Origin: Agrococcus sp. SGAir0287
Lineage (GTDB): Bacteria > Actinomycetota > Actinomycetes > Actinomycetales > Microbacteriaceae
Direction: 5' to 3'
Length of the DNA: 64,000 nucleotides
Assembly (NCBI RefSeq): GCF_005484985.1
Contig: NZ_CP027942.1
Location: 2,356,001 to 2,420,000, forward strand
A model generated the notes under the pieces. The model was not told the DNA's origin. It did no database searches and saw nothing but the letters and a program-made list of their open reading frames with translations. A program made the position numbers and the translations under genes. Positions 39,963 through 47,150 of this stretch are shown here, piece after piece (within the stretch, counting starts at the first letter, position 1; each line of letters opens with the position of its first letter).

Positions 39963-41186
39963 GTGCTCCCCGAACGCGCCAGCGGCATCCAGCTGCACCT
40001 GACGTCCCTGCCGGACGGACGCCTCGGCGCGTCCGCACGCCGCTTCGTCGACTGGCTCGCCGACGCCGGGCAGACCGTCTGGCAGGTGCTGCCGCTCACG
40101 GTGCCGGATGCGTTCGGCTCGCCGTACGCCTCGCCGTCGGCGTTCGCGGCGAACCCCGCGCTGCTCGAGCATCCGGATGCGCCCGTGAGCCAGGACGAGG
40201 TGCGCGCGTTCGCCGAGCGGCACGCCTACTGGGCACCGTCGTGGGTGGCGCACGGCGGCGATCTCGCCGACCAGGTGCGCGTCGACCGCGAGTGGGGCGC
40301 CCTGCGCGCCTATGCGCGCGAGCGCGGCGTCATGATCCTCGGCGACGTGCCCATCTACGTCGCGCAAGGCGGCGCCGACGTGGCCGCGTGGCCGGAGTAC
40401 TTCCGCGACGACGCCGTCGCGGGCGTACCGCCGGACGCCTACGCCGCGACGGGGCAGCTGTGGGGCAACCCGCTCTACGACTGGGATGCGCTCGCCGCCG
40501 ACGGCTACCGCTGGTGGATCGAGCGACTGCGGCGCACCTTCGACCTCTACGACCTCGTGCGCATCGACCACTTCCGCGCGTTCAGCGACTTCTGGGCGGT
40601 GCCCGCAGGCGATGCGACAGCCGAGCGCGGCGTCTGGGAGCCCGGCCCGGGTCGTGCGATGTTCGACGCCGCGACGGCCGAGCTCGGCCCGCTGCCCGTG
40701 CTCGCCGAGGACCTCGGCGACATCGATCAGCCGGTGCTCGACCTGCGCGACGCGCTCGGCTTCCCCGGCATGGCCGTGCTGCAGTTCGCGTTCGAGGGCG
40801 ATGCGACGAGCCCGCACGAGCCGGCGAACCTGACGCGCGAGCAGGTCGTCTACACCGGCACCCACGACAACGACACCGTCGTCGGCTGGTGGACGACGCT
40901 GCCACGGTCGCGGCGCCGTGCTGCGCGGCATGCGATGCGCGCGGCGGGCGCCCGGTGGTCGACGAGGCGGCGCGAGCCATCGTGGGGTCTCATCGAGGTG
41001 GCGCAGCACGCGCCGAGCAGGCTCGCGGTGGCCCAGGCGCAGGATGTGCTCGGCCTCGGCTCCGAGGCGCGCATGAACACGCCCGGCACCGCCTCGACGT
41101 GGGGCTGGCGGATGGATGCGGATGCGCTGACGAGCGCGCACGCGAGCCGGCTGCGCGCCATCTCGACGGCAGCCGGCCGCGTGTGA
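39963..41186 (+). CDS. malQ: 4-alpha-glucanotransferase MalQ, compact form
   Basis: 407 residues. It transfers alpha-1,4-glucan segments between maltodextrins (amylomaltase, GH77). The catalytic residues are in place: nucleophile Asp202 in VRIDHFR, acid/base Glu249 in VLAEDLG, and Asp302 in THDNDT. The N-terminal SGIQLHLTSLP and SPYASPSAF bind glucan. It is about 100 residues shorter than the usual 500-residue short form, with trimmed loops after residue 60, but no motif is missing. The start is GTG 39963, 7 nt after CAGGCT (39951-39956), a leaderless arrangement. It is alone, with no glycogen genes in the window. Confidence 0.9.
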   Translation: MLPERASGIQLHLTSLPDGRLGASARRFVDWLADAGQTVWQVLPLTVPDAFGSPYASPSAFAANPALLEHPDAPVSQDEVRAFAERHAYWAPSWVAHGGDLADQVRVDREWGALRAYARERGVMILGDVPIYVAQGGADVAAWPEYFRDDAVAGVPPDAYAATGQLWGNPLYDWDALAADGYRWWIERLRRTFDLYDLVRIDHFRAFSDFWAVPAGDATAERGVWEPGPGRAMFDAATAELGPLPVLAEDLGDIDQPVLDLRDALGFPGMAVLQFAFEGDATSPHEPANLTREQVVYTGTHDNDTVVGWWTTLPRSRRRAARHAMRAAGARWSTRRREPSWGLIEVAQHAPSRLAVAQAQDVLGLGSEARMNTPGTASTWGWRMDADALTSAHASRLRAISTAAGRV

Positions 41187-41189
41187 GGT

Positions 41190-41222
41190 GCCGGTGCTGC
41201 GAGACTCGCTCGCAGCACCGGC
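41190..41222. terminator. Bidirectional terminator between malQ and the chaplin-like gene
   Basis: GCCGGTGCTGCGAG (41190-41203) pairs perfectly with CTCGCAGCACCGGC (41209-41222), loop ACTCG. It starts 4 bp after the malQ stop and ends 8 bp before the convergent stop. Confidence 0.9.
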
Positions 41223-41229
41223 CCTCGAC

Positions 41230-43317
41230 TCAGCGCTGCGCGAAGGCGCGGCGTCGCGCACCCATGAGCAGCAGGCCGAGCAGCAGCGCCGCGATGGCGA
41301 GCGCCAGGCCGGCGGTGCCGAGCTCGGCACCGGTCACCGGCAGCGAGGCCGAGGCCGTCGGCGTCGCAGCGGGCGCGTCGGCCTTGGGCGACGACGGCGC
41401 GGCGCCCGCGGGCGTCGCGTCGACGGGACCGCCGGTCGACGGGCCGCCGGGGCCGCCCGTCGAGGGCGTGTCCGTGCCCGGCGTGGTCGGCGTGCCCGGC
41501 GTCGTCGGCGTGCCCGGCTCCTCCGGCATCGTCGGCTCCGTGATCACCACGGTGGTCGAGCCCGTCGTGGTGGCGTCGCCGAGCACCGACACGGCGTTCC
41601 CGCCGATCGTGACGGGCGCCACGATCTCCAGGATCGAGGTTCCGCCGGAGAGCAGGCCGCCATCCGACGTCGAACCGGTCGACGACGAGGAGGCGGGGGC
41701 GACGACGGTCGTCGTCGCGTCCTGCGACCACGCGTCGCCCAGCACCGACACGGCGTTCCCGCCGATCGTCACGGGCGCCGTGATCGCGATGCCCGACGAG
41801 CCACCCGAGAGCAGCCCCTCGTCCGAGCCCCACTCCGACGAGCCGGAGCCCATCGCGTGCGACTCCGCCATCGCCGGAGCGTGCACGGTCGTCGTCGCAC
41901 CCTCCGACCAGGCGTCACCCAGACCCGACACGGCGTTCCCGCCGATCGTCACCGGCGCCGCCGCAGCGATGCCCGACGAGCCACCCGAGAGCAGCCCCTC
42001 GTCCGAGCCCCACTCCGACGAGCCGGAGCCCGTCGCGTGCGACTGCGCCATCGCCGGAACGTCGACGGTCGTCGTCGCACCCTCCGACCAGGCGTCGCCC
42101 AGACCCGACACGGCGTTCCCGCCGATCGTCACCGGCGCCGCCGCAGCGATGCCCGACGAGCCACCCGAGAGCAGCCCCTCGTCCGAGCCCCACTCCGACG
42201 AGCCGGAGCCCATCGCGTGCGACTCCGCCATCGCCGGAGCGTGCACGGTCGTCGTCGCGTCCTGCGACCACGCGTCGCCCAGCACCGACACGGCGTTCCC
42301 GCCGATCGTCACCGGCGCCGCCGCAGCGATGCCCGACGAGCCACCCGAGAGCAGCCCATCGTCCGAGCCCCACTCCGACGAGCCGGAGCTCGTCGCGTGC
42401 GACTCCGCCGTCGCCGGAGCGTGCACGGTCGTCGTCGCACCCTCCGACCACGCGTCGCCCAGACCCGACACGGCGTTCCCGCCGATCGTCACCGGCGCCG
42501 CCGCAGCGATGCCCGACGAGCCACCCGAGAGCAGCCCCTCATCCGATCCCCACGCCGACGAGCCGGAGCCCATCGCGTGCGACTGCGCCATCGCAGGAGC
42601 GTCGACGGTCGTCGTCGCACCCTCCGAGTGCGCGTCCCCGAGGACCGAGACCGCGTTGCCGGAGACGGTGATCGGCGCCGAGATCACGGCACCGGACGAG
42701 CCGCCCGAGAGCAGCCCGCCATCCGAGCCCGAGCCGGCGCTCGACGACGTCGCATCGGCCGGCGCGTCGACGGTCGTCGTCGCACCCTCCGAGTGCGCGT
42801 CCCCGAGGACCGAGACCGCGTTGCCGGAGACGGTGATCGGCGCCGAGATCACGGCACCGGACGAGCCGCCCGAGAGCAGCCCGCCATCCGAGCCCGAGCC
42901 GGCGCTCGACGACGTCGCATCGGCCGGCGCGTCGACGGTCGTCGTCGCACCCTCCGAATGCGCGTCCCCGAGGACAGAGACCGCGTTGCCCGACACCGTG
43001 ACCGGTACCGAGACCACGGCGGCCGACGACCCGCCCGACAGGAGCCCTCCGGAGCCCGAGTCGGCGCTGCCGCCCTGAGATGCGGTGGAGGTGGCTGCCG
43101 CGACGGACGTGTCGGCACCCGAGGTGCTGGCATCGTCGCCGCCGACCGCGTTGCCCGCGATCGTGACCGGCAGCTGGAGGTCGACGATCGAGGTGAGGTC
43201 CGAGCCGATGCCCGAACCCTCGTCGCCGACGTCGGCACTGGCGACTGCCGTGCCCGCGGCCCAGAGGCCGCCTGCGACGGCTGCGCACAGCAGCCCTCGC
43301 GTGACGTGCTTGTTCAT
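41230..43317 (-). CDS. LPVTG-anchored surface protein with ten chaplin-like repeats
   Basis: 695 residues. Signal peptide 1-31 ends ASA. Residues about 45-600 are ten repeats of 53-60 residues. Each has GLLSGGSS, then a hydrophobic core such as APVTIGGNAVSVLGDAWS, then TTTV and a Ser/Ala/Gly/Glu spacer. The core resembles the chaplin motif of Streptomyces (V-P-V-x-V-C-G-N-x-V-x-V-V-G), but with Gly or Ser in place of Cys, so no disulfide can form. A Pro/Thr/Gly wall-spanning region follows, then LPVTG at 659-663, a membrane helix and RRR for sortase anchoring. The ATG at 43317 has GAAGGG. It probably forms amyloid-like or hydrophobic surface layers; this is inference. Confidence 0.88.
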   Translation of the reverse strand: MNKHVTRGLLCAAVAGGLWAAGTAVASADVGDEGSGIGSDLTSIVDLQLPVTIAGNAVGGDDASTSGADTSVAAATSTASQGGSADSGSGGLLSGGSSAAVVSVPVTVSGNAVSVLGDAHSEGATTTVDAPADATSSSAGSGSDGGLLSGGSSGAVISAPITVSGNAVSVLGDAHSEGATTTVDAPADATSSSAGSGSDGGLLSGGSSGAVISAPITVSGNAVSVLGDAHSEGATTTVDAPAMAQSHAMGSGSSAWGSDEGLLSGGSSGIAAAAPVTIGGNAVSGLGDAWSEGATTTVHAPATAESHATSSGSSEWGSDDGLLSGGSSGIAAAAPVTIGGNAVSVLGDAWSQDATTTVHAPAMAESHAMGSGSSEWGSDEGLLSGGSSGIAAAAPVTIGGNAVSGLGDAWSEGATTTVDVPAMAQSHATGSGSSEWGSDEGLLSGGSSGIAAAAPVTIGGNAVSGLGDAWSEGATTTVHAPAMAESHAMGSGSSEWGSDEGLLSGGSSGIAITAPVTIGGNAVSVLGDAWSQDATTTVVAPASSSSTGSTSDGGLLSGGTSILEIVAPVTIGGNAVSVLGDATTTGSTTVVITEPTMPEEPGTPTTPGTPTTPGTDTPSTGGPGGPSTGGPVDATPAGAAPSSPKADAPAATPTASASLPVTGAELGTAGLALAIAALLLGLLLMGARRRAFAQR
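41581..43190 (-). repeat. Ten-copy coding repeat, 160-180 bp period
   Basis: The hydrophobic core recurs at intervals of 180 bp through the central copies (cores near 41755, 41935, 42115, 42295, 42475, 42655) and 165 bp in the 5' copies (42820, 42985, 43150). Central copies are nearly identical at the DNA level, which points to recent expansion or gene conversion. The repeat number is likely to vary between strains and to collapse in short-read assemblies. Confidence 0.9.
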
Positions 43318-43398
43318 GATGGAACCCTTCGTGATGGATGCTTCGCTCGCTCCGGTCGGAGCGGCGCCGTGCCGCGCGAGCGCGCGGTCGGGCATCCG

Positions 43399-44301
43399 TC
43401 AGTCAGGGCTCGTGTCGTGGTCGCCCACCACGGAGGCGGGCACGTGGTCGTCGCCGGCGGGAGCGGCGCGGACGCCGCTCGACGCGCCGATGCGCTCGTG
43501 GGTCGCGTCGCCGACGGGTCCGGCGGCGCCTGCCGAGCCGGATGCGGGCGCGGTCAGCGCTCGCTCGTCGGTCGGGAAGGGCGCACTGCGCTCGTCGTCG
43601 GCGGTCGTCGAGGCGGGCGCGCCGAACGTGGCCGCCTGCGCGGCGACGTCGTCGCTCGTGGCTGCGATCTGCGCGGCGAGCTGCGCCCCGACGCCCTCCG
43701 GCGATGCCGCCCGACTCGACGCGACGCCCGCCCAGGGGCCGGACGAGGATGCATCCACGACCATCGGGGGGACCTCGGCGCCGCTCGCGATGGGTGCGGC
43801 GACGGCGTCGTCGTCGACGACCTCGACCACAGGGTCGACGATCGCGCCGACCGGCTCGACGACGTCGCGCACGATGGGCACCGCGACCACGGCCTCCTCG
43901 AGGCTGTCGACGACGGGCGTGAGGACGGCGGCGACGGGCGGCAGCGCCGAGACGACGGGCTGCGCGAGCTGCACGACGGGTGCTGCGACCTGGGTCACGG
44001 GCACGGCCGCCGACTGCACGATCGGCGCCGCAGCGGCGACGGCCGGCCCCGCGATCGACTCGACCGGCGCGGTGACCGGTGCCACGACGGCGACGGTCTG
44101 CTGCACGACGTCGACCGTCGTGTCGCCGAGCGACTGCGAGGTGGACGAGAGGACGCCCTCGAGCGTCGAGCCGTCGTCCGCCGAGGCGTCAGGAGCGGCG
44201 AGCACGAGCCCCGCGACGACCGCACCGCCACCGACGACGAGCGAGCCGAGCAGCAGCCGCAGCGCACGGGAGCGGAGAGCCTTCGCTCTCGACGCATCCA
44301 T
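43399..44301 (-). CDS. Secreted Val/Pro/Ala-rich protein upstream of the chaplin-like gene
   Basis: 300 residues. An N-terminal membrane segment or signal peptide (about 14-40, LLLGSLVVGGGAVVAGLVLA) is followed by about 120 residues of hydrophobic Pro/Val/Ala sequence with a loose PVV-every-11-residue rhythm (AAPVVQLAQPVVSALPPVAA). The C-terminal 130 residues are hydrophilic and disordered-looking, with no cysteine and no LPXTG. No family is recognised. The ATG at 44301 has GGGGGAGGTG. Its stop is 81 bp from the start of the chaplin-like gene on the same strand, so the two are probably one surface operon. Confidence 0.72.
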   Translation of the reverse strand: MDASRAKALRSRALRLLLGSLVVGGGAVVAGLVLAAPDASADDGSTLEGVLSSTSQSLGDTTVDVVQQTVAVVAPVTAPVESIAGPAVAAAAPIVQSAAVPVTQVAAPVVQLAQPVVSALPPVAAVLTPVVDSLEEAVVAVPIVRDVVEPVGAIVDPVVEVVDDDAVAAPIASGAEVPPMVVDASSSGPWAGVASSRAASPEGVGAQLAAQIAATSDDVAAQAATFGAPASTTADDERSAPFPTDERALTAPASGSAGAAGPVGDATHERIGASSGVRAAPAGDDHVPASVVGDHDTSPD

Positions 44302-44437
44302 GCGGCACCTCCCCCGGTACGCGACCAGTGGACACCTCAGACGCCTGGCGGAGACAGACCCTTGCGTCGGACGGCGCGTCGGGCGTACGCGCGCACGCGT
44401 TCGGAGTCGTCGACGTCTCGGATTGCAGATGTCCCCC

Positions 44438-44457
44438 GGACGGCGCGAGCGCCGTCC
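44438..44457 (-). terminator. Terminator downstream of argG
   Basis: GGACGGCG-CGAG-CGCCGTCC, a perfect 8-bp stem with a tetraloop. On the minus strand argG ends at 44509 and this hairpin follows, isolating argG from the next gene. Confidence 0.65.
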
Positions 44458-44508
44458 CCCTCGATCGGGGAGACGGCGCTCGAACGCGTGCGGGTTCCCC
44501 GCGACGAG

Positions 44509-47150
<2,642 letters not shown>

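Follow-up and report, generated by a model that had tools for sequence, protein, structure and literature searches.

Chaplins are known as the coat of the aerial hyphae of Streptomyces, and the locus described here raises the question of what a chaplin-like protein does in another actinobacterium and what belongs to it. The window, the whole stretch of DNA analyzed, comprises 64,000 nucleotides of Agrococcus sp. SGAir0287 (contig NZ_CP027942.1, positions 2,356,001 to 2,420,000) and encodes on its reverse strand a ten-repeat protein that a reading of the letters alone (the sequence-only reading) had likened to chaplins. That reading saw no aerial-growth genes, in a view limited to the window, the genome not having been searched for them. 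It also missed the conserved two-gene unit to which the chaplin-like gene belongs as its second member. What is new is the recurrent, tailed partner and an uncatalogued RNA joining the two genes; the open-access literature yielded no SPD-tailed partner, no chaplin leader RNA and no study of Microbacteriaceae chaplins. The best explanation of the whole is probably a paired, wall-anchored, cysteine-free chaplin that is coupled to its partner through this RNA.

Partner gene and RNA element

The protein encoded directly upstream, here called the partner, matches nothing in Pfam or NCBIfam up to E 10, and its structure model is poor. Its C-terminal tail was compared across 80 loci, the best 80 of at least 343 confirmed chaplin relatives; two of these chaplin loci, L002 and L003, share a contig of Agrococcus sp. 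Marseille-P2731 and have the same 13.9 kb sequence, reflecting a recent duplication or an assembly artefact. Four loci (L006, L007, L017, L038) start too near the chaplin gene to show the partner, leaving 76 testable loci, and the gene preceding the chaplin has a -PD ending in 76/76. The ending is [ST]PD in 72 of these frames, RPD in three (L026 from Janibacter, L042 from Knoellia, L062 from Agrococcus) and FSPD in one (L075 from Nonomuraea), and the 80 loci, with 6538 frames of at least 80 residues between them, have only one other frame with an [ST]PD ending. The tail consensus is roughly D-D-x-L-P-x-x-P-V-x-x-T-D-x-S-P-D. The proline at position -13 occurs in 64/64 distinct [ST]PD tails, with all four proline codons in use, and its constancy is therefore a sign of selection on the protein. 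A profile search with the partner returned 54 proteins, 48 of them ending in PD, and those with names are called 'hypothetical protein' but for one, ribosomal protein L17, which is probably a chance match. Recognizable partner relatives sit directly upstream of a chaplin gene, in loci that were fetched by the chaplin search. By eye, the partners of L039, L047, L035 and L010 show a hydrophobic segment with basic residues immediately ahead of the tail, an arrangement that would suit a tail facing the inside of the membrane.

The distance from the partner stop to the chaplin start is 77-122 nucleotides in 73 sequences (81 in the window). In its common fold this leader forms a three-way junction, closed by a stem between the last codons and stop of the partner and the Shine-Dalgarno region, with hairpins P2 and P3 inside (Table 1); typical closing-stem strands are UCUCCUGACUGA, from the partner end and stop, with a Shine-Dalgarno region such as UCAGUCAGGAGA. 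A covariance model (R1) was built from six leaders, with the window excluded, and, with L006, L017 and L038 set aside as starting too near the chaplin gene, 78 sources were testable. R1 matched the site at E <= 1 in 68 of the 78, namely the window (E 1.6e-4) and 67 loci that include the six seeds and one locus identical to a seed. The other 19 of its 87 matches comprise 15 mirror matches at the same sites on the opposite strand and four elsewhere, all at E 0.13 or worse. Within an alignment (A7) of the 40 best R1 matches, which includes the window, leaves out L003 and underlies a refined model (R2), two-sided changes occur at 27 of 34 pairs, 22 of these 27 being in P2 and P3. The covariation of 0.369, in an alignment fitted to the structure, compares with 0.131 when shuffled (0/500 as high) and 0.023-0.077 when slid. 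Computation supports both the recurrent gene pair and a structured RNA between its members.

Because the closing stem varies least in A7, it was tested separately and without an alignment, using 46 leaders that remained when the 73 sequences (which exclude the RPD loci and L075) were reduced at 90% identity. The two strands of each leader pair at a mean of -22.1 kcal/mol, versus -16.3 kcal/mol for permuted strands, and none of 20000 permutations was as low. Additionally, the last proline codon of the partner is CCU in 31 of the 46, versus 90 of 1109 proline codons elsewhere in the last 200 codons; as CCU is favored there while proline -13 uses all four codons, constraints on RNA and on protein coexist in the tail. 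Searches of Rfam 15 gave no match up to E 1 in positions 40800-44800 of the window, and in ten related loci no match at the site, the sole match above the gathering threshold being a fluoride riboswitch away from it (L056:69-143).

Predicted masking of the ribosome-binding site

Computation also supports a predicted masking of the chaplin ribosome-binding site by the closing stem. Across the 46 loci the mean unpaired probability of the site is 0.21 in the intact leader, 0.37 once the 5' strand is shuffled and 0.50 once it is removed; removal raised accessibility in 44/46 loci and shuffling in 42/46, with the window going from 0.32 to 0.51. The upstream stop lies in or next to the masking strand in the predicted structures. 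Translational coupling is inferred because the masking strand is at the end of the upstream frame and fixed relative to its stop.

In the proposed mechanism, the first gene of the unit would give a secreted partner with a conserved C-terminal tail, while the three-way junction in the messenger RNA (mRNA) would mask the chaplin ribosome-binding site through a closing stem with the final codons and stop of the partner. A ribosome finishing the partner would cover or melt the masking strand and free the downstream site, giving translational coupling over some 80-120 nucleotides, and the aggregation-prone chaplin would thus be made only when, and in step with, the partner. The chaplin-like protein itself would be secreted and wall-anchored, its ten repeats probably stacking as beta-arcs into a fibrous or mat-like surface layer, and the partner is probably a helper in its export or assembly. 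Such a role would be loosely like that of the rodlins, which organize chaplins in Streptomyces (PMC4255298).

An ordinary pair of surface adhesins, with an intergenic RNA that only stabilizes or processes the mRNA and no translational coupling, is an unlikely alternative to this mechanism. GC-rich hairpins would protect an mRNA too, and most of the covariation (22 of the 27 two-sided pairs) is in P2 and P3. Against it stand a closing stem that includes the last codons of the partner and the chaplin ribosome-binding site, the better fit of a locus's own strands than of permuted ones, an uncommon codon, CCU, favored at one place, and the lower accessibility of the ribosome-binding site in the presence of the 5' strand in 44/46 loci. 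Quite improbable is an RNA that senses a ligand, a protein or temperature and governs the ribosome-binding site whether or not the partner is translated: sensors with a junction placed over such a site are known, but a free-standing sensor need not begin inside the upstream frame at a fixed position relative to its stop, no loop stands out by eye as conserved across the leaders, and Rfam gave nothing in the window stretch and only the distant fluoride riboswitch in the ten related loci.

Several results weigh against the coupled unit as favored here. R1 found no match in 10 of the 78 testable sources. In the closing stem, two of the seven pairs of helix 3 have two-sided changes and neither of the outer two does, 67.5% of cells have helix 4 paired, and the alignment was fitted to the structure. 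In the separate pairing test, only 19/46 loci had their own strand in the top three of 46.

Kinship with chaplins and anatomy of the protein

The protein matches the chaplin family PF03777 at 42.2 bits (E 7.3e-11, cut-off 21) over eight stretches, and 47 of the 50 members of an alignment of relatives (A1), the window included, match it as well, the best at 8.4e-26. This summed score is weak on its own because single repeats fall below the threshold (0/4 tried; best 8.0 bits, E 3.5) and because a periodic shuffle, with one common permutation over the repeats, reaches 30.3 bits for an unrelated family, above the cut-off of that family. A comparison of single-repeat profiles with hhalign was therefore given more weight: 430 cysteine-free repeats from the window and its homologues matched 57 cysteine-containing repeats, from nine loci of the kin of Nonomuraea and three metagenome proteins, at a probability of 98.5 (E 1.9e-15), versus at most 17.4 in column-permuted controls (n=20). 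The eight distinct repeats of the window alone reached 94.6 against the cysteine-containing repeats. The 430 repeats were restricted to cores in which GN follows G, S, T or A, cysteine repeats being dropped, and the set is no gauge of cysteine frequency. From this profile-profile match it follows that the repeats are homologous to chaplin domains, and the resemblance noticed by eye in the sequence-only reading has been borne out as homology. The AlphaFold2 model, a beta-solenoid-like stack, is likewise of the kind that this reading had named as support.

The protein is nevertheless divergent, and some points count against the favored reading. The described chaplin domain has three GN motifs 12-13 residues apart and two cysteines (PMC13251363), of which a window repeat keeps one GN and neither cysteine; some relatives (P0012, P0014) also retain an earlier GN, as SGNQ or GGNQ. 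Cysteine is not universal in chaplins, being absent from ChpE and from the C-terminal domain of ChpB (PMC3079736, PMC13251363). In the AlphaFold2 model, 213 of the 695 residues have a predicted local distance difference test (pLDDT) value below 50, and Foldseek found nothing significant with it; the best aligned chain is the curli protein CsgA (8c50; 3% identity, E 5.7), which is an analogy of fold only. AlphaFold2 may also stack repeats readily, so that caution is needed with the model. On the evidence of its sequence, we call the protein a divergent, chaplin-like branch of PF03777 and not a classical chaplin. That the repeats are low-complexity sequence converged on the chaplin core, as the sub-threshold single repeats and the periodic shuffle might suggest, is highly improbable in view of the gap between the profile-profile match and its controls and of the tailed gene that also precedes cysteine-containing chaplins.

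The repeat core is P-[VI]-T-[VI]-x-G-N-A-V, with ten GNAV cores between residues 55 and 573. The repeat units measure, in order, 55, 55, 55, 60, 60, 60, 60, 60, 53 and 42 residues, the last being cut short, so that the 53-60 residues given by the sequence-only reading hold for nine of the ten. That reading was correct that the cysteine of the chaplin motif is replaced by Gly (six cores), Ser (three) or Ala (one), and the sole cysteine of the protein is residue 11, inside the signal peptide. A Pro/Thr linker leads from the repeats to the LPVTG motif, which was likewise confirmed as read, and a hydrophobic helix and basic end follow. Both sortase-anchor models score under their cut-offs, although LPVTG, helix and RRR are present. 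The mature protein is acidic (59 D/E versus 1 K/R, isoelectric point 4.05) with a grand average of hydropathy of +0.12, values that give no picture of a strongly hydrophobic protein; the sequence-only reading had suggested that it may be a surface amyloid or hydrophobic coat. In the genome, a class E sortase gene (NF033747, 230.9 bits, cut-off 160) likely encodes the anchoring enzyme. A class F-like sortase gene (125.9 bits, under the cut-off of 166) is also found in the genome (L083, C1 near 69895-70314), between a gene for a secreted protein and one for an extracytoplasmic function (ECF)-type sigma factor. The neighboring malQ and argG are 94% and 95% identical to those of Agrococcus jejuensis, Agrococcus being a genus of Microbacteriaceae.

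Table 1. Features of the two-gene unit, in window coordinates.
Feature	Position	Strand	Basis
Partner gene, 300 aa: signal peptide, Val/Pro-rich stretches, conserved C-terminal tail	43399..44301	-	
Partner tail DDHVPASVVGDHDTSPD-COOH	43402..43452	-	Comparison with relatives
Structured RNA element, from last codons of partner to chaplin start codon	43315..43413	-	Folding, covariance model, covariation
P1 lower stem, 5' strand GAGCCCU, in codons of the last T-S-P of the partner	43405..43411	-	
P1 upper stem, 5' strand UGACGGAUGC, begins at partner stop codon	43392..43401	-	
Hairpin P2	43367..43391	-	
Hairpin P3	43344..43366	-	
P1 upper stem, 3' strand GCAUCCAUCA, pairing with UGACGGAUGC	43332-43341	-	
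Chaplin Shine-Dalgarno GAAGGG	43325..43330	-	Best upstream match to 16S rRNA tail
P1 lower stem, 3' strand AGGGUUC, overlapping Shine-Dalgarno	43322..43328	-	
Cysteine-free, ten-repeat chaplin-like gene, 695 aa	41230..43317	-	ATG at 43317, stop at 41230
Signal peptide, residues 1-28, ending AVASA	43234..43317	-	Cleavage site by eye; helix 2-27 in model
Ten repeats	41530..43209	-	Repeat mapping around core
Repeats 1-5	43045-43209, 42880-43044, 42715-42879, 42535-42714, 42355-42534	-	
Repeats 6-10	42175-42354, 41995-42174, 41815-41994, 41656-41814, 41530-41655	-	
LPVTG sorting motif, residues 659-663	41329..41343	-	Gram_pos_anchor 14.3 bits, below cut-off 20
C-terminal hydrophobic helix, residues 668-694, RRR near end	41236..41316	-	Sequence and model

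A homology search gave 125 homologues at E <= 0.001, the best 120 of which reach down to E 1.8e-7 and are the basis of the following counts; the repeat protein is thus more than a chance pattern. Those with names are mostly from Microbacteriaceae genera, with Arthrobacter, Phycicoccus, Terrabacter, Cellulomonas and others, and several homologues are already annotated as 'chaplin family protein' or DUF320. Cysteine occurs in 9 of 502 cores found with a strict pattern that misses divergent repeats, all nine in P0099, P0106 and P0117. Near the C-terminal end, 92 of the 120 have LAxTG, six have LPxTG and 22, some of them partial, have neither. Among the homologues found, many repeats without cysteine, together with a sortase motif, are the usual build, and the window protein is an ordinary member of this widespread, mostly cysteine-free branch. 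The earlier view of ten repeats with LPVTG as unusual was therefore overstated. Assembly without disulfides, which had been suggested for this protein, is already known, as ChpE, which has no cysteine, and reduced short chaplins form fibrils, ChpE doing so in vitro (PMC3079736). Chaplin-like genes have also been noted in the nonsporulating Arthrobacter chlorophenolicus, and a more ancient function in attachment was proposed (PMC4255298).

Distribution and meaning of the unit

Within the genome of the window, R2 finds a single place, at an E of 4.4e-9 that is partly due to construction, as the window is in A7. Of 120 genomes from the family, 24 have an RNA match under strict filters, whereas the chaplin alignment finds a match at E <= 0.001 in 82, in many cases through the low-complexity linker alone. 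The gene after the RNA has chaplin repeats in 20 of the 24 (18 read in loci, two from chaplin-alignment matches), and the endings of the frame before it are [ST]PD (20 genomes), APD (two) and TPG (two). Thirteen further genomes were picked that have a strong chaplin match with no RNA match at it under the strict filters; an [ST]PD gene lies directly upstream of the chaplin in 13/13, and under ordinary R2 filters the element is at its expected position in ten.

Some exceptions also count against the favored reading. In four of the 24 genomes the next gene has no recognizable chaplin repeats, three encoding secreted proteins and one a sigma factor, and TPG replaces TPD in L098 (G025) and L099 (G102), where chaplin and RNA match are kept. 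Among the 13 picked genomes, three have no R2 match and two of the other ten reach only E 0.42 and 0.48. The secreted proteins that follow partner and RNA in L092 (G040), L097 (G049, of the window's genus) and L102/L123 (G085) have a chaplin-type signal peptide and Val/Asp-rich or Gly-Leu-Pro-Gly-Asp repeats, with no recognizable chaplin core. In L094/L122 (G111, C1 near 2338451-2338536), a partner ending in ...FASDTTPD and a shortened RNA precede an ECF-type sigma factor gene, identified by a reading of its translation.

Beyond the family, the upstream gene of Nonomuraea, which is placed in Streptosporangiaceae, has 295 relatives, the best 120 of which end in SPD without exception (120/120). 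A full-length match to it occurs in 10 of 296 class genomes, all of one family (f23, presumably Streptosporangiaceae), and in 10/10 loci read the tailed gene precedes a multi-repeat, cysteine-containing chaplin. The leaders of these kin are 185-255 nucleotides long, and the RNA model gave no clear match to them (best E 0.038), a further point against the favored reading. CCUGAC at the stop could pair with a recurring UCAGG near the start, which is only a suggestion because both sides hardly vary. The leaders of these loci (L128-L137) share recurring blocks such as CGCTGTGC and TCAGGTA, and have no match in Rfam up to E 0.1.

Among the known systems close to the window protein are the multi-repeat PF03777 proteins of Microbacteriaceae, which are of the same family, with mostly cysteine-free cores and LAxTG or LPxTG; the window differs in LPVTG instead of the commoner LAxTG and otherwise in nothing essential. 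The chaplins of Nonomuraea and its kin have the same multi-repeat layout and an upstream gene ending in SPD, but keep the cysteines of CGN...GC and have a longer leader without a clear match to the RNA model. The long chaplins ChpA-C of Streptomyces are likewise secreted, with GN beta repeats and a C-terminal sortase signal (PMC3079736, PMC13251363), whereas they have two domains, each with three GN and mostly two cysteines, in place of ten repeats with one GN and no cysteine. ChpE shares the lack of cysteine and differs in its single short domain and in having no wall anchor.

In the unit as a whole, the second protein is mostly a chaplin and, in a few genomes, another secreted repeat protein or a sigma factor. 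Tentatively, and short of an even chance, the unit may be a widespread actinobacterial surface module, in which a partner with a fixed tail is combined with an exchangeable second protein whose translation is conditional through an undescribed RNA, the second protein being a cysteine-free chaplin in the non-filamentous cells of Microbacteriaceae. If so, the chaplin system would not be primarily a device for aerial growth. In an actinobacterial family whose members are mostly non-filamentous, relatives of the chaplins are wall proteins of many repeats and no cysteine, and the unit gives direct access to the questions of which function chaplins have apart from aerial growth, which helper they need and how a surface protein prone to aggregation is kept matched to its helper.

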